Origin: Chloroflexota bacterium
GTDB lineage: Bacteria > Chloroflexota > Chloroflexia > Chloroflexales > Chloroflexaceae
Assembly: GCA_030550625.1 (NCBI GenBank)
Contig: JAUQOZ010000017.1
Location: forward strand, 1 to 33,969
DNA: 33,969 bases
Direction of reading: 5' to 3'
Made by a program: the position numbers and the translations under genes. The notes beneath the pieces are model-generated. The model saw only the letters and a program-made list of their open reading frames with translations. It had not been told where the DNA came from and did not search any database. Shown in pieces: positions 23,464 to 33,956 of the stretch (its first letter is position 1; the number at the start of each line of letters is the position of its first letter).

Positions 23464-24165
23464 ATGGATCTGGCAGGAAAAGTGGCGATTGTCACCGGCG
23501 GAACCGGCGGGTTAGGAGTTGCGGTGGTGGAACGGCTGCTTGGCGCTGGCGCAACCGTAATAACACCGTATCTTGATGAGACGGCCTTTGCGCGGCTGCA
23601 TGAGTGCTGCCCCGCCGCCATCGGCGTGCGTGTCGATTTGACCGATGAAGCGGCGGCCAAAGCGACCTACGACGCTATTGCGGCGACGCACGGCGGCATC
23701 GACATTCTGGTCAATTCCGCCGGCGGCTTCGCTGGCGGCGAGCCGGTGCATCAAACGCCGTGGTCGCTCTGGCAAAGCCAGCTCGACATCAACCTCAAGA
23801 CGGCGGTCATCTCGTGCGCCGCGGCCATTCCCCACATGATCGCCCGCGGCGGCGGCGCGATCGTCAATGTCAGCAGCCGCACCGCCACCCAAGCCGGCGC
23901 CAACCTCGCCGCCTATGCCGCTGCCAAGCGTGCCGTGCTGCAACTGACCGAAGCGCTCGCCGCCGAACTCCTCCCCCACGATATTACCGTCAACGCCGTC
24001 CTGCCGAGCGTGATCGATACGCCGGCCAACCGGGCAGCCATGCCCAAGTCCAACCACGAGCGCTGGGTCAAACCCAGCGAGATTGCGGCGGTGATCCATT
24101 TTCTAGTCGGCCCCGCCGCGCGCATCATCAGCGGCGCCGCCATCCCGGTGTATGGGAAGGCGTAG
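23464..24165 (+). CDS. Short-chain dehydrogenase/reductase (SDR)
   Basis: A 233-residue classical SDR. The dinucleotide loop is TGGTGGLG (11-18). The next signature reads NSAGG at 84-88 in place of the usual NAG. N110 lies in LDINLKT. The catalytic serine region is VNVSSRT (S137/S138), and Y151-x3-K155 is in YAAAKRA. All four catalytic-tetrad positions are therefore filled. It uses NAD(P)H to interconvert an alcohol and a carbonyl; substrate unknown. AGGAG sits 5 nt before the ATG. A GTG two codons earlier is in frame but would overlap that site. It is the last ordinary gene before the four-gene operon. Confidence 0.92.
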   Translation: MDLAGKVAIVTGGTGGLGVAVVERLLGAGATVITPYLDETAFARLHECCPAAIGVRVDLTDEAAAKATYDAIAATHGGIDILVNSAGGFAGGEPVHQTPWSLWQSQLDINLKTAVISCAAAIPHMIARGGGAIVNVSSRTATQAGANLAAYAAAKRAVLQLTEALAAELLPHDITVNAVLPSVIDTPANRAAMPKSNHERWVKPSEIAAVIHFLVGPAARIISGAAIPVYGKA

Positions 24166-24391
24166 CGGGGAGGGGGTAATGACTCCATCGCGTCAGGTCG
24201 AAAAAACAGCAACTTCATCATCCAATGGCTGATCTTTCCAATTGAATCTAGTGCAACGAATATCTGTGCAACCAATCCTGCCAGTACAGCGAGCTATCCT
24301 GTGATGGCTTTGCAGACCATTCCTTGGTAATTGCTTAGTAACATCCTCATGTATAGTAGAGGCAGGATATGCCTTTACTTTTTTTCAAGCT
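24166..24391 (+). promoter_or_regulatory. Upstream region of the four-gene operon with CTGTGCAA and a start-site hairpin
   Basis: A 226-nt gap, AT-richer than its left neighbour. CTGTGCAA at 24264-24271 lies in ATATCTGTGCAAC, a 13-nt word also present at the SRPBCC promoter. GTGCAAC occurs twice (24251-24257 and 24266-24272). TATAGT (24352-24357) could be a -10, with TTGCTT (24331-24336) as a poor -35 at only 15-nt spacing. GCAGGATA (24362-24369) is mirrored by TATCCTGC (24397-24404), spanning a T7 run and the start codon. No Shine-Dalgarno sequence is seen. Confidence 0.45.
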
Positions 24392-26020
24392 ATGCCTATC
24401 CTGCGTGAACGATCAGACGGCCGGTTTTATATCCGCGCATGGATGCCGGGAACTACGAATATCGGGACATGGCAACTGCACAAGGATGGTTTAGCATATT
24501 TAAACAGTATCGGCATTACGAAAGACGGCGATAGATTTGATTGGGAAATTTTAAATTTGTTGAAGGAAAAAGGATGGGTTTTCACAGCAGGAACAGGTTT
24601 TAACGGACCCACCACACCTGACCCCACCGCACTTGACCTCATTATTAAACCAGATCCTCAACCTAAACCTGAACCTGTTAGACGAGGCGCCTCGCTGCGC
24701 ATCCTCATTAACAAAACTGATTGGCAAATAGCGATTTTCCTGCGTGAAATCCCGCGCGGATGGGCGAAGAGCACCGATGATATAGTCGCATCACTCCAAT
24801 CTTGGGCGATTCAGGTCGAGCAAACCAAGGTGCCGGCAATGCGCCTCTACCCCGGCCAAGGCGGCGCGCTCGTGCCGGTAGCGCCAGCGCAGGGGCGTTA
24901 TAGCGTCCATCTACTAGGTACATGGCCCAAAGCGTGGAGCGTGCAAGAACGGTACTTTTCCGTACTTGGGTTAAGCGAGGGCATCACGATATTCGACGAA
25001 GAGCGAGGTGAACGGATCGCGCCTAACAGCCAGTTAGAGAGTGGCAAGTCCTATGTGTTGGCGGGCAACAAGGGTCTGAATGTACCACCTGAAATCATCA
25101 AGCGTAATCTCGACTCTCTTGATGAATGGAATGCATGGCGAATTACTATTCCAAAGGCGCCATCAGATCAGCTTGTGCAGTGGTTTCAGCAGTTTAAGAT
25201 GGAGATAAAGTCTCCTTGGTCTAAAGTAACGTTACTCACGCCAGTTATCGCCTATACGACAAATGATCAACCTATTATTAAGCAAGACGGTCGGATTATT
25301 GTTGCAATACCATTCAATAATGCTGCCAATCCTGCCATAAAGTACTTTGAACTGCCAAACCCCGGGATTGGACGTTTCCAGATCACGCTCGACGACCTAC
25401 CGGTCAAACCGCTCTCTATAGATGTCCGCGCCGATGATCAGGTAACGCTGCCTCAGCCGCTGCAAACGATTATTCGCTGGCATGATCAAACAACAACGTT
25501 GCGCGCCTTCACTGACAGCTCAACGACGTTCCAACCGGTTCACGCCGACGAGACATCGCTTGAGGTGACTGTGCTCTGCCTCGTGCCGGTTAAACTCACC
25601 TTATCAGGATCGCCAAGCAGCGAACAGATGTTCAAGCTCGATCCGGCTGAGGCTAGTGAACGGATCAAGCGCGCGATGTTGACCGCCGTGCGCCGAGGGC
25701 AAAACCTATCGGTGCGCATCGATGGTCAAGCCTTCGGCGCAGTCACGTTTGCAATCAATCCGCAACCGGTTTCTCCTCCGCCTGATCCAGCGGATACAAC
25801 CATTCACGCCTATTTGCGCCGGCTAGCTATCCTAGCGACGGTACCACACCGGCAACACGCGGTTGTTTCGCTGCCATCGCGCACACAACAGACCTTGCAG
25901 CAACTTGCTATCACCTATCACTATCCGCAACTCCGCAATGTACGGCGGGTTGCGCCAAATCTGTTGCCAATGATTAATACGATTGTAAAACTCGTAAACG
26001 AAAGGAACAATCATGAGTAA
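24392..26020 (+). CDS. Gene A: unrecognised protein of candidate defence operon
   Basis: A 542-residue protein I do not recognise. The N-terminal part (about 1-70) opens ILRERSDGRFYIRAWMPG and is followed by a Pro/Lys linker (about 74-98, with PDPQPKPEP). The rest appears rich in beta strands with short helices, perhaps several small barrel or Ig-like modules, such as GRYSVHLLGTW and SGKSYVLAGNKG. A second Pro-rich linker (QPVSPPPDP) precedes a helical C-terminus. It has no signal peptide, membrane helix or evident catalytic motif. It is the first gene of the operon and overlaps gene B by 8 nt. The start lacks a Shine-Dalgarno sequence and lies in a possible hairpin. Base composition near 24481-24600 is about 37% G+C by hand count, far below the flanks. 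A sensor or scaffold role is only a guess. Confidence 0.75.
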   Translation: MPILRERSDGRFYIRAWMPGTTNIGTWQLHKDGLAYLNSIGITKDGDRFDWEILNLLKEKGWVFTAGTGFNGPTTPDPTALDLIIKPDPQPKPEPVRRGASLRILINKTDWQIAIFLREIPRGWAKSTDDIVASLQSWAIQVEQTKVPAMRLYPGQGGALVPVAPAQGRYSVHLLGTWPKAWSVQERYFSVLGLSEGITIFDEERGERIAPNSQLESGKSYVLAGNKGLNVPPEIIKRNLDSLDEWNAWRITIPKAPSDQLVQWFQQFKMEIKSPWSKVTLLTPVIAYTTNDQPIIKQDGRIIVAIPFNNAANPAIKYFELPNPGIGRFQITLDDLPVKPLSIDVRADDQVTLPQPLQTIIRWHDQTTTLRAFTDSSTTFQPVHADETSLEVTVLCLVPVKLTLSGSPSSEQMFKLDPAEASERIKRAMLTAVRRGQNLSVRIDGQAFGAVTFAINPQPVSPPPDPADTTIHAYLRRLAILATVPHRQHAVVSLPSRTQQTLQQLAITYHYPQLRNVRRVAPNLLPMINTIVKLVNERNNHE

Positions 26021-27548
26021 AGATAATCAATTGAACAAACTGCCGCCAAAAAGCAGCGAAGAAATCTCTGGATTATTAATCCAACTATTAACGAAACCTA
26101 ATGAAAGAGAGAGGATATGGAATCAGCTCATTGAGTCGATTCTTAAAGTAATTAATACCAATAATAAGAACGAAATAAAAACTTTTCAACAGAGCATTAC
26201 TCAACTTGAGCAACGTGAAACCCAGCTCCAAAAGCAAATCGACCAGCTCACTGCTGCTCAAACAGAGTATGAGCGGCTGAAACAGGAGCTGCAACTCGTG
26301 CGGAGGGGGCTAAAGTTATTCTCAGCTTCACGCCAAACAGAGTATGAGCGGCTGAAACAGGAGCTGCAACAGGCCCGAACTCAGCTCGCAGCCTTAGAGC
26401 AATCGTATCAACAGCTTCAGCCGCAACCCAACCAACATCTGCAGGCCGAAATCACCCGCTTAAGCCGCGAACTGAAACAGTACGGCGAGCGGATCGACCA
26501 ATTGCAACAAACCTTATCACGCTTTATCAACGATCAGCCGGCAAGTCCGCCTTCTAGCCATACCAGCGCAATCGCACCGCCAGCAACTGTCCTCCAATCA
26601 GAAGCTGCTTCGATCGCCGATCAAAACCAGCTTGTCGCTCTCCTGCGCAAACGGATGCAGCGCGTCGGCTTGGATGAATCGGTGACATTAGCGTTGCACG
26701 CCGCCTTTATGAGCGGTCTGATGCCCATCGTCAAGGGTTCCGCCGCAATGGCTGCACTAGAAGCGTATGCGCACGTCATCGCTGGCGGACGCTTGGCAAG
26801 CCTGAGCATTGTGCCGACCATCGTCCAGCCAGCCGATCTGTTTGTCGTATCACCGGCTGACCGGCAAGCATGCATTGCCCATCCAGCCGGTTTACTTGAT
26901 ACGGTGCTGTTTGCGCAGCAGCCGGAACAAGCCGATACCCTCTTTCTGATCGTGCTTGAGGGGATCAACCGATCGACCGTCGAAACCTATCTCTTGCCAT
27001 TATTGCAGTGTTACGCCACTGCCCAACAACCGCAGGCTCACCGCTACCTGCCGCTCTTCCACCCCTCCCTGCTGCCCCAAGACCATCCCTATACGCCGGC
27101 AGCACGGCTGGTATGGCCAAAGAATGTGTTGTTGGCCGGCACTGTCGTTGAAGGTATTGCAACGCTGCCCTTACCAGCCGAGCTATGGTCGTATGCCTGC
27201 TTGATCAATGTTGACGCCAGAATTGATCTTCACACAGCTTCATCTTCCGCTGCGAGGCATAGCGTCACAGCGCATCAATGGCTTACATGGCACGCTGAAG
27301 CGATGTCACGCTTTGGTGCAGCGCTGAAAGATTGCCGCGATTTGCTTGACTCAGAAAAAGATTTGCGCATCCCTGAGATGGTGCTGGCTGCCGGAGCTAG
27401 ACTCTTTGCATGTTGTCAAACGAATGAAGCCGAGCAGCTAGCGGTAAGCGGCGTATTTGGCCCGTATGCCGTGGCAACCAATCAGCAACAAGCCTTGCAT
27501 CAAATCATCGATTCGTATGGATTGGAAGTTGATGTTACAGCGCTGTGA
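26013..27548 (+). CDS. Gene B: coiled coil fused to a degenerate McrB-like AAA+ domain
   Basis: A 511-residue protein. Residues about 45-170 are a Gln/Glu/Leu-rich coiled coil containing two copies of QTEYERLKQELQ. From about 205 the order follows the McrB-clade AAA+ fold, with altered motifs. The P-loop position reads IVKGSAAMAAL (239-249), lacking the GKT/S. A strand and PTIVQPADLFVV match the conserved Pro-x-D-L segment. The Walker B position reads FLIVLEGINR (311-320), keeping E316 but not the aspartate. Sensor 1 reads NVLLAGTVVEG (371-381), like the family's GTVN. The GTP-specific NxxD motif was not seen. It is therefore probably a non-hydrolysing structural partner; this is my reading, not a database result. 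AAGGAA precedes the ATG, which overlaps gene A. Confidence 0.75.
   Translation: MSKDNQLNKLPPKSSEEISGLLIQLLTKPNERERIWNQLIESILKVINTNNKNEIKTFQQSITQLEQRETQLQKQIDQLTAAQTEYERLKQELQLVRRGLKLFSASRQTEYERLKQELQQARTQLAALEQSYQQLQPQPNQHLQAEITRLSRELKQYGERIDQLQQTLSRFINDQPASPPSSHTSAIAPPATVLQSEAASIADQNQLVALLRKRMQRVGLDESVTLALHAAFMSGLMPIVKGSAAMAALEAYAHVIAGGRLASLSIVPTIVQPADLFVVSPADRQACIAHPAGLLDTVLFAQQPEQADTLFLIVLEGINRSTVETYLLPLLQCYATAQQPQAHRYLPLFHPSLLPQDHPYTPAARLVWPKNVLLAGTVVEGIATLPLPAELWSYACLINVDARIDLHTASSSAARHSVTAHQWLTWHAEAMSRFGAALKDCRDLLDSEKDLRIPEMVLAAGARLFACCQTNEAEQLAVSGVFGPYAVATNQQQALHQIIDSYGLEVDVTAL
26259..26370 (+). repeat. 37-bp direct repeat inside gene B (75-bp period)
   Basis: An identical 37-bp stretch occurs at 26259-26295 and 26334-26370. 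The offset is 75 bp, exactly 25 codons, so the frame is kept. It encodes QTEYERLKQELQ twice, separated by a basic stretch (VRRGLKLFSASR) that breaks the heptad pattern. This implies a recent in-frame duplication or insertion in the coiled coil. Confidence 0.85.
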
Positions 27549-28636
27549 GTAATGAAATGCAGCAAAAACCGCTTTCGCCAGCAGAAGCGCAGCGCCGCTG
27601 GCTAGAGGCGTTTGGCCTCATGACAGTCAATGGGTCACTCAATCTGCCGGCACTGGTTGCCGAAGCGCTGCGTGTCGTCATCTGGACGCAATGGGCAACC
27701 GATTACCAACCGATCCATGTATTGCGCCTGATCAACAAGGCGTATGATCTGCTCGTGCCATGGCGCAGCGACATAGCGCGTTGGCTTGAAGCAATTCGTG
27801 CCGCGTCAGCGGGTGACGCAAGTGACAATGCGCGGCAGGTAGTCTCCGAAAAGCGATGGCTTAAAACGATCCTGACCACGCTAGAGGAGGCCGGTGATAT
27901 TGCACACGGAGGACAGGGTTTTTGGTGGCCGGCGCCATTACGTTATGTCTCACTGCCGGCAGCGCAGCGCTGGCTCATGCTTGGCGGGCCGCCTGCCCAT
28001 CTGTTGCCGCGCACCGTCCAGAACCGCCTTGAATGGGTAGGATTAGCGCGCTTACTGCCGCAATCTTCTGCGCAGTCCAAGTTAGCCGCTCCCGTTATCA
28101 CCCTGCACGATTGGCTTGGCATACCAGCCATGCCGTTAATTGAATGGACGCAAGCGATCCTGAACCAGACCCGGCTGGAACCGACTAGTGGCGTTGCGGC
28201 TGAGATATATATCCCACCAAACTGGCAAACGTCATTACGCGACGTACCAGATGGCCGGTACTTGATACGGATGCGATCACGTTTCAAAAGCTATTCCTAC
28301 GCGATCGCTAATGTTCAAACTGGACGAATCACCGCGATCGGCAGGCTGGATCACACCACGTGTGATATACCACGTTTACGGTATGGTCTACGTGCATTAG
28401 CCGCCAAACCTGTTCAAGTCACCATCCAGTCGCAGCAATCCGATGTTATATTCACCTTGTATCGAAGGCTGCCGCGCGCTGAAGCATTGCTGTTCCAGAT
28501 GCTTGGTCGCAGCAACGCGCCGGTTGACGCTGCACAGCCGCCATTCACGTGGATCGTTCCGCTGAAGTATGCAGAACAGCTATACGACGCCTTAAGAGGG
28601 TTGCACGTTGCAATCGTTTCGAGCACTGCAAGGTGA
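27545..28636 (+). CDS. Gene C: unrecognised protein with winged-helix-like N-terminal half
   Basis: A 363-residue protein. It starts at GTG 27545, overlapping the gene B stop by 4 nt (GTGA); ATG 27557 is an alternative. Residues about 30-130 are helical, with KRWLKTILTTLEEAGDIAHGG followed by GFWWPAPLRYVSL, which resembles a winged-helix pair with its beta wing. A short segment LMLGGPPAHLLP follows. The C-terminal half looks alpha/beta with no catalytic motif visible. It has no membrane segment. The spacing and order tie it to genes B and D. A DNA-binding or adaptor role is plausible but not shown. In size and position it could parallel a Druantia accessory protein such as DruD; I cannot confirm this by eye. 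Confidence 0.72.
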   Translation: MSNEMQQKPLSPAEAQRRWLEAFGLMTVNGSLNLPALVAEALRVVIWTQWATDYQPIHVLRLINKAYDLLVPWRSDIARWLEAIRAASAGDASDNARQVVSEKRWLKTILTTLEEAGDIAHGGQGFWWPAPLRYVSLPAAQRWLMLGGPPAHLLPRTVQNRLEWVGLARLLPQSSAQSKLAAPVITLHDWLGIPAMPLIEWTQAILNQTRLEPTSGVAAEIYIPPNWQTSLRDVPDGRYLIRMRSRFKSYSYAIANVQTGRITAIGRLDHTTCDIPRLRYGLRALAAKPVQVTIQSQQSDVIFTLYRRLPRAEALLFQMLGRSNAPVDAAQPPFTWIVPLKYAEQLYDALRGLHVAIVSSTAR

Positions 28637-28640
28637 GTCG

Positions 28641-31600
28641 ATGACTATGCTCAATGATTCCGCAGGCGAGTTGCAGAGCATCGCCCACACATTGCGAACG
28701 AAATTGCACCAATACATTGAAGCAACCTTCTTTATTCGCGATCCGTCACTGGTAGCGGAACGGTGCGCGTTGTTGAATCAGACCATCGCGATTGCGCGTG
28801 AGCCTTTTATTGAGACAACCCCGTCTTATGCCATCACAGACGGCTACCATTCACTTCCGCTGCCGGAACTGATCCGTACCCAGTTCGCCACATTTGCTCA
28901 ATGGCAACCCAGCATTGGCATCTTCCCCCACCCCTACCAACATCAAGCTGCGGCGCTAACGGCTTTTTTTCGCGATCGCTGCGATCTGATCGTCGCTACC
29001 GGTACGGGATCGGGTAAAACCGAAACCTTCTTAATGCCGATTCTTGGTCATTTGCTGCAAGAAGCATCTGAACGGCGCGCTACCTTTGCGCTGCCCGGCA
29101 TGCGTGCGCTCATCCTTTACCCGATGAACGCTTTGGTGAACGATCAGATTGCGCGTTTGCGGCGGCTGTTTGGCGATCAACGCTTGAGTGAATGGTTTGA
29201 TCGTCACTATGGCCGGCATCCATTCTTTGGCGCTTACACGAGCCGTACCCCTTACGCCGGCATGCGTGATGACAAGCGTGATCAACAGTTCGTCGCGCCG
29301 CTCGTCGCACATTACCTCAAACTTATCCAACTCGCCACGATTCATGGCCCTCATTCTTATGAAGCGCAATTAATCAACGACTTACAACAGCGTGGACGGT
29401 GGCCGGCGAAAGATCTGATCGCTTTCTTTGGCAAGCCGGACACGATGTGGAAAAATCGGTTCCTAACTCAACCCGGCGACCGCGAATTGCTAACCCGCCA
29501 CGAGATGCATGAGCGTTGCCCTGATATTTTGGTGACGAATTATTCAATGCTCGAATATATGCTGCTGCGCCCGATCGAGCGCAGCATGTTTGAGCAAACG
29601 CGCCATTGGCTTGCAGCGCATCCGGCCAACGAATTGATCCTCGTCATCGATGAAGCGCATTTGTACCGCGGCACCGCTGGCGCAGAAGTGGCTTACCTGA
29701 TTCGGCGGCTGCAAACGCGGCTTGGCATTGAGCGTGATCGCATGCGCTGCATCCTCACCAGCGCTAGTTTCGGCGCAAATGCCGCCATTGCCGATGAAGT
29801 GATCGCGTTTGCAGCGCAATTAACTGGCTCACTGCATACCCGTCGCTTTCAGTTTGTACAGGGTGTGTACGAATCTCGTCCGCCGGCGCGAACAGGTACA
29901 GCCCAAGAAGGAACCGCGCTCGCTGCTTTTCAGCAGCAACGATTTACCCATCGCGCCATCGATCGAGCGGCTGCCATCGCTGAACTGGCGCGATTAGCCG
30001 AGGCGCTGCAGTGGCCGCCACTGCCAACCGATCACGATGATGCTGCTTTGCGCGCCTATCTTTACCAACAGTGTTATGGCTTTGGCCCCTTAGAAACCTT
30101 GATCGCAGCAAGTGCAGGCCGAGCCATGAGTCTTGACGCCTTAGCCCAACAGATGTTTCCCACGCTCGCGTTAGCCACCGCGCGCCGGGCCACTGAGACC
30201 TTACTTCACCTAGGCACGTATGCGCACAATGGGCAACGACCCCTCGTGCAAACACGCCTGCATGTCTTGTTCCGCGGCTTGCCTTCGTTGTGGGCATGCA
30301 TCAATCCTCATTGTACGGCGCGTCTCGCTCCTGCCCATCCTCGATCGTTGCTTGGACGTTTGTTTACCGAGCCCCGCACCCATTGTGATTGTGGCGGCAG
30401 AGTGTATGAACTCCTCGTTCACCGGCCCTGTGGCGCGGCTTTCTTACGGGTGTTCGGCTCTAGCCGGCAAGCCGACTTCTATTGGCACGAAGCCGGCGGC
30501 TGGCTACGCCGGTCAACCCCGCTGATTGAAGACTGGTTGATTATTGAAACACCGTTGCCGAAATATCAACAAAAGGGTCTGGTAGAGCCGATCTGGATCG
30601 ACATCCAGACGGGCAGAGTAATGACTGATCCGCCGGCAAACGTCGAACGATATCGCCAATGCTGGCGGATGCGTTCATCAACCATCGCAGAGCGCGCTGA
30701 TAGAGATAGTGACGATGAAGCGGATGCCCTACCCTATCCTTTCAAATCGTGCCCAAACTGTGATCGGCGTAATCCAAGCAAAGTGCTTGATCTCGCGATC
30801 CGTGGCGAACGACCGTTCGCTAATCTCGTTCAGACCGCCTTCAGCACCTTGCCGCCAACCAAACCCGCCTCGCGCCATCATCCTAACGGCGGGCGCAAAC
30901 TGCTCATTTTTGCCGACGGACGTCAAAAAGCGGCCCGGCTAGCGCGTGATTTACCGCGTGAGGTCGAACGCGATACCTTTCGACAGGTGTTGGCCTGCGC
31001 CGTACATCGGTTGCAACAATTACATTTTGAACCAAAACCCGATAATAGTTTATATACCGCGTTTGTGGCAATCTGTCGCGCATTAGATCTCTACTTTTTT
31101 GATCGCGCAGACAATTCGCAAGAAATCTTCCTAAATGCACTGCAGAAGTTTGAAGAGCAATTCGATAACGATCTTGCGCTTGCGCTTTCTACGGCTAATC
31201 CGCTTGGTGATCCGCCATCACTTTACCGGCAACATCTTTTATATCAACTTTCAGACCAGTTTTACAATCTTTACGATGTAGGGGTGATGGTCGCGAAGCC
31301 ATCGAGATTGGCTATGCGTCACATTAAACACGAAGTAGCCCAAAAACCGAAACTCGCACCCTTTCAGTCTGAATTACTTGAGATTGCTACATTTTGGATA
31401 CAGAGCATGCTAAGCAAAGGAGCTTTTGATGGTAGTCTTCCTCACCATATTCGGCAACGAGCGCTTGGTTTAGAGAATGCGCCAACTGCTGATAAAATTC
31501 TCCTCGACGAACATTTTCAAGAATTTGAAGAACAAAAAGTCAGGGATTTGAATCAGATTTTTTACAACATTTTAACCAAAAATAAGAATGGGTTTATCTA

Positions 31601-33956
31601 TCTCAAACCAGAGACGCTCACGCTCACCTTAGCGGTTGATGAGGTCTGGTATCGTTGCCAAACGTGCGGCAACATCCAGCACGCGCCACTTTTCGGACGA
31701 TGTTTCGCGTGTCGCGCACCCCGCTTGGTTGCTTGCCCGCCGACCGACCCGACGCTGGCGGCACGACTCGATTATTTCCGCCAACCGGTGCGTGAGGCGT
31801 TGCACGGCAAAGCGCCGCGACATATCTATGCCGAAGAGCATACAGCGCAGCTTTCCCACCGCGATGAAGGCGCAATCTACGCCACCACGGAAGAATTTGA
31901 ATTGCGGTTTCAAGATATTGTGCTTGATACACAACATCCGCCGGTTGACGTGCTGAGCTGCACCACAACGATGGAGGTCGGGATCGATATTGGTTCCTTA
32001 CAGGCCATTGGGTTGCGCAATGTTCCGCCGCAACGCGCAAACTACCAACAACGCGCCGGACGCGCCGGACGCCGCAGCGCTGCTATCGCCTTGGTAACAA
32101 CGTATGCCGAGCATAATTCACACGACCAACACTATTACTACAACCCCGAGCAGATGATCGCCGGTGAACCGCGCCTGCCCTATCTCAGCATTGATCGACC
32201 ACGGTTGGCGAAACGACACATCAATGCTTTCCTAATCCAAACCTTTTTCCAGCAGCAAGAAATTTATGCCGCTCGCCGCAATCTCTTTAGCGTGCTCGGT
32301 ACGTGTAAAGAATTTTTCCTCACCAATGCGCATGAATATTCATTTGAGGCGTTTTGTCGCTGGATCGCTCAGCATGTGTATGTGCGAGAAAGTCCGCTGC
32401 TGCAACAAATTGCCGGCTGGTTGCCTAAGTCTATGCTTGCCCAAGCGCAGCAAGAGGCATTTGCATTTGTGCAAAGCGCGGCACACAAGCTCATTAATGA
32501 CCTCCAGCAGCTCAAACAGCACGTCATTGAGCATAAGCGGGCGAATGCCTCCCTGCTCGAAACCCTGTTTGATGCCGGTCTGTTGCCCTCGTATGCCTTT
32601 CCGAATGATGTGGTCAGTTTTTACGCCTTTGATCGCGAGACCGGCGAGATCAAGGAACAACCGCAACTTCGCAAGTGGCAAGCGCTCAGTGAATATGCCC
32701 CCGGTCGCTTGCTCGTCATCAACAAAGAAACGTATCGCGTAGGAGGCGTGTACCATCCCTATGCCGAAGGCAAACCTTTCTCCGCACAACTCCAACGCTA
32801 TACGTACTGTTCAGCATGCTCGTATGTGCGGATCGATGCAAGCAATACGCCGTTGGAACAATGTCCGGTTTGCCGGCATCGGCGTCTCAAGCAATATCCG
32901 ATGCTCGATCCGGTTGGATTTTCGCCCGAAGCAGGCTTACCCACTCTTGAACACGATACATCGCAAGAGCTAAGCTATGCTGACGATATTCAGTTGCCAT
33001 TGCCGGTTGAACCCGAACGGCTGTCATGGCGATCAGGCGGCGGCAAACGGCTCCAGATAGCCTACGCGGAGAATCAACAATTTGTGGTCGTGAATGCTGG
33101 TCCCGAACAACAAGGCTTTCGCGTCTGTGAAGCGTGCGGCGCAGCCGCTCCAGCCAACATCGGTTTATCACCAGCACATCTTAGACCATACCCTACGCCA
33201 TCTGGACAATCAGGATCACGAATTTGTCGGGGTGCGCAACACACAGTCTATCTAGGCGCGACCTTTCGGAGTGATCTGCTCTTGTTGCGCGGGTCTTTGG
33301 CTGAGCCGATTACGCGGGATCCGCTTTCGCGTCCATTGCAAGATGCGCTGCAAACGGCTGCCGATGCGCTCGCGCTAGCGGCTAGCTACCACCTTGATGT
33401 TGATCCGGTTGAACTTAGCGCCGGCTACCGTTTCTTGCCCGAATCCGGTCGGGTTGATCTCTTTCTGGTAGACACAGCGTCGGGCGGTGCGGGTTTTGCC
33501 GCCGAGGCCGGACGGCAGATCGATCAGATTCTCCAAGCGACGCTACGCTTGGTCGAAGAGTGCCCCCGGCAATGTGAACGATCATGTACGGCCTGTCTCC
33601 GCCACTACGGTAATCGCATACGACACGCGCAGCTCGATCGACGGCTGGCAGCGCAGTTGCTCCGTTATCTGATCGATGATCAACTGCCCGCAATTCCGCC
33701 AACGGATCAGCAAACAAAATTGCTTGAACCATTGAAACGATGGTTTGAACTGGAGGGATGGAAGGTTAGTCATACCTCTCGCGCGCCGCTTATGGTAGAA
33801 CGTGATCATCGCACAATTACGATTGGTGTTTACCCTGCATTACTCAATCCATCATCGCCGCGTTTCCTCCATCCCCTCCAAGGATATGGCAAGTTGGTCA
33901 GTGACTATCTAGTAAGTCGTGATTTGCCTGCGGCGTATAAACATATTATTCGCTAA
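28641..33956 (+). CDS. Gene D: large DEAH superfamily-2 helicase with zinc clusters and DUF1998 domain (DruE/MrfA-like)
   Basis: A 1771-residue protein. Helicase lobe 1 has motif I GTGSGKT (121-127, K126), LYPMNALVNDQ, TNYSMLEYMLLRP, motif II DEAH (337-340) and motif III SAS (374-376). Lobe 2 has LLIFADGRQKAARLA near 755, TTMEVGIDIG (1109-1118) and motif VI QRAGRAGRR (1137-1145). Paired cysteines between and inside the lobes suggest zinc sites: C553/C558/C582/C584, C704/C707 and C1006/C1009/C1021/C1024. The DUF1998-type region has C1496/C1499 and the cluster C1641-x3-C1645-x3-C1649-x2-C1652. All motor motifs are intact, so ATP-driven DNA translocation is expected. Size and layout match DruE-type defence helicases; MrfA is about half as long. 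ATG 28641 follows AAGGTGAG and lies 4 nt after the gene C stop. The coding sequence is complete. Confidence 0.92.
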   Translation: MTMLNDSAGELQSIAHTLRTKLHQYIEATFFIRDPSLVAERCALLNQTIAIAREPFIETTPSYAITDGYHSLPLPELIRTQFATFAQWQPSIGIFPHPYQHQAAALTAFFRDRCDLIVATGTGSGKTETFLMPILGHLLQEASERRATFALPGMRALILYPMNALVNDQIARLRRLFGDQRLSEWFDRHYGRHPFFGAYTSRTPYAGMRDDKRDQQFVAPLVAHYLKLIQLATIHGPHSYEAQLINDLQQRGRWPAKDLIAFFGKPDTMWKNRFLTQPGDRELLTRHEMHERCPDILVTNYSMLEYMLLRPIERSMFEQTRHWLAAHPANELILVIDEAHLYRGTAGAEVAYLIRRLQTRLGIERDRMRCILTSASFGANAAIADEVIAFAAQLTGSLHTRRFQFVQGVYESRPPARTGTAQEGTALAAFQQQRFTHRAIDRAAAIAELARLAEALQWPPLPTDHDDAALRAYLYQQCYGFGPLETLIAASAGRAMSLDALAQQMFPTLALATARRATETLLHLGTYAHNGQRPLVQTRLHVLFRGLPSLWACINPHCTARLAPAHPRSLLGRLFTEPRTHCDCGGRVYELLVHRPCGAAFLRVFGSSRQADFYWHEAGGWLRRSTPLIEDWLIIETPLPKYQQKGLVEPIWIDIQTGRVMTDPPANVERYRQCWRMRSSTIAERADRDSDDEADALPYPFKSCPNCDRRNPSKVLDLAIRGERPFANLVQTAFSTLPPTKPASRHHPNGGRKLLIFADGRQKAARLARDLPREVERDTFRQVLACAVHRLQQLHFEPKPDNSLYTAFVAICRALDLYFFDRADNSQEIFLNALQKFEEQFDNDLALALSTANPLGDPPSLYRQHLLYQLSDQFYNLYDVGVMVAKPSRLAMRHIKHEVAQKPKLAPFQSELLEIATFWIQSMLSKGAFDGSLPHHIRQRALGLENAPTADKILLDEHFQEFEEQKVRDLNQIFYNILTKNKNGFIYLKPETLTLTLAVDEVWYRCQTCGNIQHAPLFGRCFACRAPRLVACPPTDPTLAARLDYFRQPVREALHGKAPRHIYAEEHTAQLSHRDEGAIYATTEEFELRFQDIVLDTQHPPVDVLSCTTTMEVGIDIGSLQAIGLRNVPPQRANYQQRAGRAGRRSAAIALVTTYAEHNSHDQHYYYNPEQMIAGEPRLPYLSIDRPRLAKRHINAFLIQTFFQQQEIYAARRNLFSVLGTCKEFFLTNAHEYSFEAFCRWIAQHVYVRESPLLQQIAGWLPKSMLAQAQQEAFAFVQSAAHKLINDLQQLKQHVIEHKRANASLLETLFDAGLLPSYAFPNDVVSFYAFDRETGEIKEQPQLRKWQALSEYAPGRLLVINKETYRVGGVYHPYAEGKPFSAQLQRYTYCSACSYVRIDASNTPLEQCPVCRHRRLKQYPMLDPVGFSPEAGLPTLEHDTSQELSYADDIQLPLPVEPERLSWRSGGGKRLQIAYAENQQFVVVNAGPEQQGFRVCEACGAAAPANIGLSPAHLRPYPTPSGQSGSRICRGAQHTVYLGATFRSDLLLLRGSLAEPITRDPLSRPLQDALQTAADALALAASYHLDVDPVELSAGYRFLPESGRVDLFLVDTASGGAGFAAEAGRQIDQILQATLRLVEECPRQCERSCTACLRHYGNRIRHAQLDRRLAAQLLRYLIDDQLPAIPPTDQQTKLLEPLKRWFELEGWKVSHTSRAPLMVERDHRTITIGVYPALLNPSSPRFLHPLQGYGKLVSDYLVSRDLPAAYKHIIR

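Follow-up and report, generated by a model that had tools for sequence, protein, structure and literature searches.

We conclude, with a probability that we put at about 0.85, that the four genes at the right-hand end of the window (the whole stretch of DNA analysed here, 33,969 nt, which is the entire contig C390 of the source genome) constitute a horizontally acquired variant of the Druantia type I defence system that lacks DruA and retains druB, druC, druD and druE. All four genes lie on the plus strand and, as the initial annotation had described and the open reading frame coordinates confirm, overlap by 8 nt (A and B) and 4 nt (B and C), with 4 nt separating C from D (Table 1). The mechanical start of the last frame is a TTG at 28608; the ATG start is at 28641. 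Upstream of the operon the genes are housekeeping in nature (RsgA, gyrase A, a DisA-type DAC and YbbR), and the contig ends 13 nt past the stop codon of druE, so that the 10 kb further right that the initial annotation proposed to examine lie outside it. Druantia type I was reportedly defined by Doron et al. in 2018 as a five-gene system, DruABCDE. The initial annotation had recognised a defence operon, and in this it was right; it had also listed methyltransferase and PLD genes as missing, but to our knowledge neither is expected in Druantia type I.

Table 1. Features of the druBCDE operon and of its insertion site (window coordinates).
Feature	Coordinates	Strand	Size or basis
Left edge of insertion (SDR gene end and first bases after it), 53 nt	24124..24176		Identical to C353:1-53
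Gene A, DruB-like	24392..26020	+	542 aa
Gene B, DruC-like	26013..27548	+	511 aa
DruC coiled coil, residues 52-173	26166..26531	+	AlphaFold2 helices 52-135 and 141-173; Pfam and PDB coiled-coil matches
DruC predicted pseudo-AAA+, residues 200-505	26610..27527	+	Foldseek, VIA-align, motif loss
Gene C, DruD	27545..28636	+	363 aa
Gene D, DruE1, YprA-family SF2 helicase	28641..33956	+	1771 aa from ATG
DruE motif I GTGSGKTE, residues 121-128, intact	29001..29024	+	Invariant in DruE alignment A1
DruE motif II DEAH, residues 337-340, intact	29649..29660	+	D337, E338, A339 and H340 invariant in alignment A1
DruE MZB/DUF1998 zinc-binding domain, residues 1574-1653	33360..33599	+	Pfam PF09369, 8.4e-13

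The identification of the genes draws on two sets of profiles and on gene order. Against PADLOC-DB, gene D gave a full-length match to DruE1 (1859 bits, model positions 7-1770 of 1776), so that the motor previously called DruE-like is a complete DruE1, and gene C matched DruD1 (2.7e-24, residues 107-359). Gene A matched DruB1 at 5.3e-10 over 118 residues (193-310), weakly outside this central region, and gene B matched DruC1 at 1.8e-7, with most of the score coming from its coiled coil; the four matches stand in the canonical order B-C-D-E. HMMs built independently from 11 proteobacterial DruABCDE operons, with the window sequences left out, identified A as DruB (7e-11), B as DruC (2e-12, again largely through the coiled coil), C as DruD (6.5e-37, residues 36-358) and D as DruE (1707 bits), while the other open reading frames of the window scored E 0.1 or worse against the same DruB to DruE models. 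The DruABCDE operon of the Pseudomonas putida plasmid pKF715A (NZ_AP015030.1), which is complete and annotated as Druantia type I, encodes homologous proteins of similar sizes in the same order and orientation, albeit with a longer DruC (625 aa against 511 aa in the window). Since the PADLOC models, the proteobacterial HMMs and the pKF715A operon agree, we identify the four genes as druB, druC, druD and druE of Druantia type I, and the suggestion that the sizes of A, B and C recall DruB, DruC and DruD is upheld. The match to a named system that would have spoken against novelty was thus found in substance, strong for C and weak for A and B, where it is propped by gene order and the window-free HMMs. 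Indeed, the window DruB and DruC have diverged strongly (their identity to relatives is about 9-26%), and their tentative assignments, given low scores to the curated models, lean on gene order and on intermediate sequences: gene B has relatives 25-26% identical over the whole protein in the druBCDE loci L046, L047, L067 and L072, through which its AAA+ part can be linked to DruC. The annotated DruD of pKF715A (WP_172901773.1, 260 aa; L042:8868-9992) is itself probably short at its start, as its open frame is 374 aa long, with a match to the DruD model that starts at residue 29.

The operon possesses the DruE1, DruD, DruB and DruC features of Druantia type I, whereas DruA was sought and is absent, and for this reason we do not file it as a full member of the type. 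The earlier remark that DruA is missing holds for the genome as a whole: a profile search for DruA (DUF4338, PF14236) gave no match in the 4.74-Mb assembly, which is 99.75% complete, and the positive controls W01, G400, G401 and G402 all gave matches. A search of the genome contigs with DruE alone as query gave no match, and an alignment as query did. Our survey comprises 89 loci, drawn from collections of genomes and of plasmids. Of these, 48 carry druB, druC, druD and druE together; because the gene order is kept in these 48 loci across many phyla, as the comparison across genomes proposed in the initial annotation could establish, it is not due to chance. DruA was found in the flank of 22 of the 48 and in the flank of none of the other 26, and when PF14236 was searched for in the whole genomes of these 26, DruA proved absent from 25. 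The sole exception, L047, has a PF14236 match approximately 10 kb upstream of druB and was therefore rejected as a DruA-less locus. The DruA-less state is clustered on the DruE tree, requiring 4 changes against a mean of 15.4 when shuffled, and most of the DruA-less DruE sequences belong to a single large clade made up mainly of Bacillota. In the same tree, which was made by a quick method and contains several long branches, the window DruE groups with that of the DruA-less locus L035 and with an Oscillochloris DruE on a cut contig (support 93). The absence of DruA is thus not a local loss; the same shortened operon occurs in many distant bacteria. Since many lineages keep BCDE without DruA, we infer that DruA is dispensable or replaceable. 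We found no phage assay of any DruA-less Druantia system in the literature, and these operons are natural four-gene cases that allow a direct test of whether DruA is needed. Moreover, as about half of the druBCDE loci lack druA genome-wide, in contrast to the five-gene description of the type, any definition or detection rule that makes DruA obligatory would overlook them.

Could the operon instead be a truncated and decaying remnant of DruABCDE that has lost druA and no longer works? DruA is indeed gone from the genome, and in some related Chloroflexota loci druE stands by itself (L037:10070-15646, L038:5042-10621 and L039:4982-10561 encode a DruE1-type helicase, with druB, druC and druD not found nearby). 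Yet in the window the four frames are intact and their junctions overlap, the motor motifs are conserved, 25 genomes belonging to several phyla maintain the DruA-less BCDE arrangement, and the clustering of such loci on the DruE tree is not what would be expected of decay, which together make this explanation improbable. A longer system, with a fifth component (an effector or DruA) lying past the contig end, in the gap to contig C353, on which the empty site described below is found, or elsewhere in the genome, also appears unlikely. As only 13 nt of contig lie beyond druE, a further gene downstream is possible, and druA or druB does follow druE in some loci (L052, L054, L065 and L074). However, the PF14236 search covered the whole assembly, and druE is the last gene in most BCDE loci. 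Nor is there assembled room for such a gene, the next conserved host gene beginning 258 nt into a contig whose first 53 nt are the end of the SDR gene, although unassembled sequence could exist.

In this Chloroflexota genome the operon is a recent insertion: its site is empty in congeners, and an empty copy of that site is present in the same assembly. In six genomes of the same genus, the stretch homologous to the window runs only as far as 24164-24176, immediately past the SDR gene, and the gene that lies next to SDR in these relatives is found in the source genome at C353:258-1109 with 94% identity. Contig C353 opens with the 53 nt that form the left edge of the insertion in the window and then continues as an uninterrupted site. 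The operon also differs in composition from its flank, with a GC content of 53% against 61% and a GC3 of 0.53-0.57 against 0.77-0.83. The shared 53 nt may mean that the sequenced population is a mixture of filled and empty forms, that a repeat of at least this length flanks the insert, or that the assembler made a chimeric join at this point.

The reading of gene B as a coiled coil fused to a dead McrB-like AAA+ domain is substantiated by structure prediction. The AlphaFold2 model (pLDDT 82), built with the alignment of the window protein, has a long coiled coil and a confident AAA+ domain, whose best Foldseek matches are McrB (6hz4_A, 2.4e-5, and 6ut6_D); VIA-align matched it to the MoxR-type 2r44 (Z 16.1) and to McrB 6ut6_D (Z 15.9, rmsd 3.4 over 181 residues). 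A PDB sequence search with DruC yielded coiled coils or noise only. The window protein has KGSAAMAAL in place of the P-loop and LIVLEGINR in place of Walker B, so that, by motif loss and predicted fold, its AAA+ domain should be catalytically dead. Since neither GK[ST] at the P-loop nor hhhhDE at Walker B is kept in any of 38 DruC relatives, a dead AAA+ domain would be, as judged from sequence, a trait of the DruC family, complete DruABCDE operons included. This bears on the proposal, made in the initial annotation, that the operon is a categorically new defence system defined by the pairing of a McrB-derived pseudo-ATPase with a DruE-like motor. Gene B does carry such a fold, but the pairing is already a trait of Druantia type I because DruC itself is the pseudo-ATPase, and D, C, A and B match the DruE, DruD, DruB and DruC models of PADLOC; we therefore rejected novelty of this kind, which we consider very improbable. 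The sections of PMC12458937 consulted describe a McrB-like protein, CnuB, for Druantia type II only, and neither these nor the other literature looked at made mention of a dead AAA+ domain in the DruC of type I. DruC, annotated until now only as of unknown function, thereby gains a testable identity as a pseudo-McrB AAA+ protein with a coiled coil.

That gene A is beta-rich is borne out by its AlphaFold2 model (pLDDT 73), which has tandem beta-sandwich (Ig-like) domains at about residues 100-460, but Foldseek and VIA-align returned generic Ig-like matches only (best Z 7.0) and we claim no function for DruB from them. A PDB sequence search gave nothing meaningful for either DruB or DruD, and DruD, which the initial annotation had described as winged-helix-like, had no Pfam match.

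The SF2 motor of DruE appears intact as judged by its motifs. Pfam recognised DEAD/DEAH (1e-18), Helicase_C (1.5e-6) and MZB/DUF1998 (8e-13) domains, and with motifs I and II the protein retains motif VI (QRAGRAGR at residue 1137) as well as seven CxxC pairs, in agreement with its original description as a DEAH/DUF1998 helicase of 1771 aa. A profile of DruE and its relatives matched the solved helicases 9tu7, 9wae and MrfA/YprA 6znp. No nuclease domain was recognised in the four proteins by Pfam or PADLOC profile searches, as had been noted before. According to Bell et al. (PMC12458937), the YprA-type helicase of Druantia I ends in an inactivated Vsr nuclease.

Motors and folds of this kind recur in other systems. 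Druantia type III (DruH-DruE) has a YprA-family DruE motor in common with the window operon but its DruE bears two PLD domains and is partnered by DruH (PMC13192584, PMC13316683), whereas in the window operon no PLD domain was found and DruE is accompanied by DruB, DruC and DruD. Druantia type II, or 'Type IV CoCoNuT' (DruMFGE), combines a DruE-family motor with the coiled-coil McrB-like CnuB, according to PMC12458937, and in this resembles the window operon, which in contrast has no DruM and whose DruE fits the E1 model (1859 bits) over the E2 model (706 bits). With McrBC type IV restriction the operon shares the McrB/MoxR-clade AAA+ fold of DruC; this assignment was nonetheless rejected, as gene B lacks intact Walker A and B motifs and no match to McrC was found among the four genes with Pfam or PADLOC. 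DISARM was likewise discarded: the MZB/DUF1998 domain is fused within the helicase rather than split between DrmA and DrmB, the DrmA match to D reached 3.7e-14 against 1859 bits for DruE1, and there is no methyltransferase among the four genes.

Most likely, the operon is a DNA-directed helicase defence that does not itself include a nuclease. In Druantia III, DruE has a preference for 3'-tailed DNA, onto which it loads, and its substrates are replication intermediates (PMC13192584). By analogy with it, DruE of the window may load onto phage replication intermediates where their DNA is single-stranded or 3'-tailed, and would then translocate along or unwind the phage DNA. DruC could serve as a coiled-coil scaffold or oligomerisation platform rather than as an ATPase or GTPase, and DruB, a string of beta-sandwiches, and DruD might be subunits for recognition or adaptors. 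Phage DNA replication would thereby be disrupted or blocked, with any degradation left to host nucleases.

We further propose, tentatively and at somewhat less than even odds, that DruA-less druBCDE is a distinct and long-lived Druantia subtype, in which the role of DruA is absent or has been taken over by other modules; in several Bacillota-type loci a type II restriction pair lies directly upstream of druB. On this view all Druantia I systems of the BCDE kind would use a dead McrB-type AAA+ protein, DruC, as the structural base on which the DruE motor is mounted.

As regards the upstream genes themselves, several DruA-less loci of the Bacillota type have type II restriction genes directly upstream of druB: an m5C methyltransferase with an Eco47II-like endonuclease at L079:2508-4546, an m5C methyltransferase with an EcoO109I-like endonuclease at L088:3487-5417 and an Eco47II-like gene at L107:4515-5408. 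The set that was scanned, which includes L084:2574-4623 and L098:3427-5380, contained four m5C methyltransferases, together with a single endonuclease of each of the two kinds. Another Druantia I-like architecture is seen in 11 loci (L090, L092, L096, L099, L100, L101, L110, L112, L117, L119 and L120), where a DruB-like stretch lies inside larger proteins (about 690-1500 aa) that adjoin druD and druE, with DruC not detected. Finally, the source genome encodes a second YprA-family helicase of 1726 aa (L151, G000:C10, 1001-6181), for which the best PADLOC match is a partial one to DruE3 (336 bits); it is preceded by a TPR-repeat protein and possibly belongs to a TALON-type locus such as those that PMC12458937 reports in Chloroflexota.
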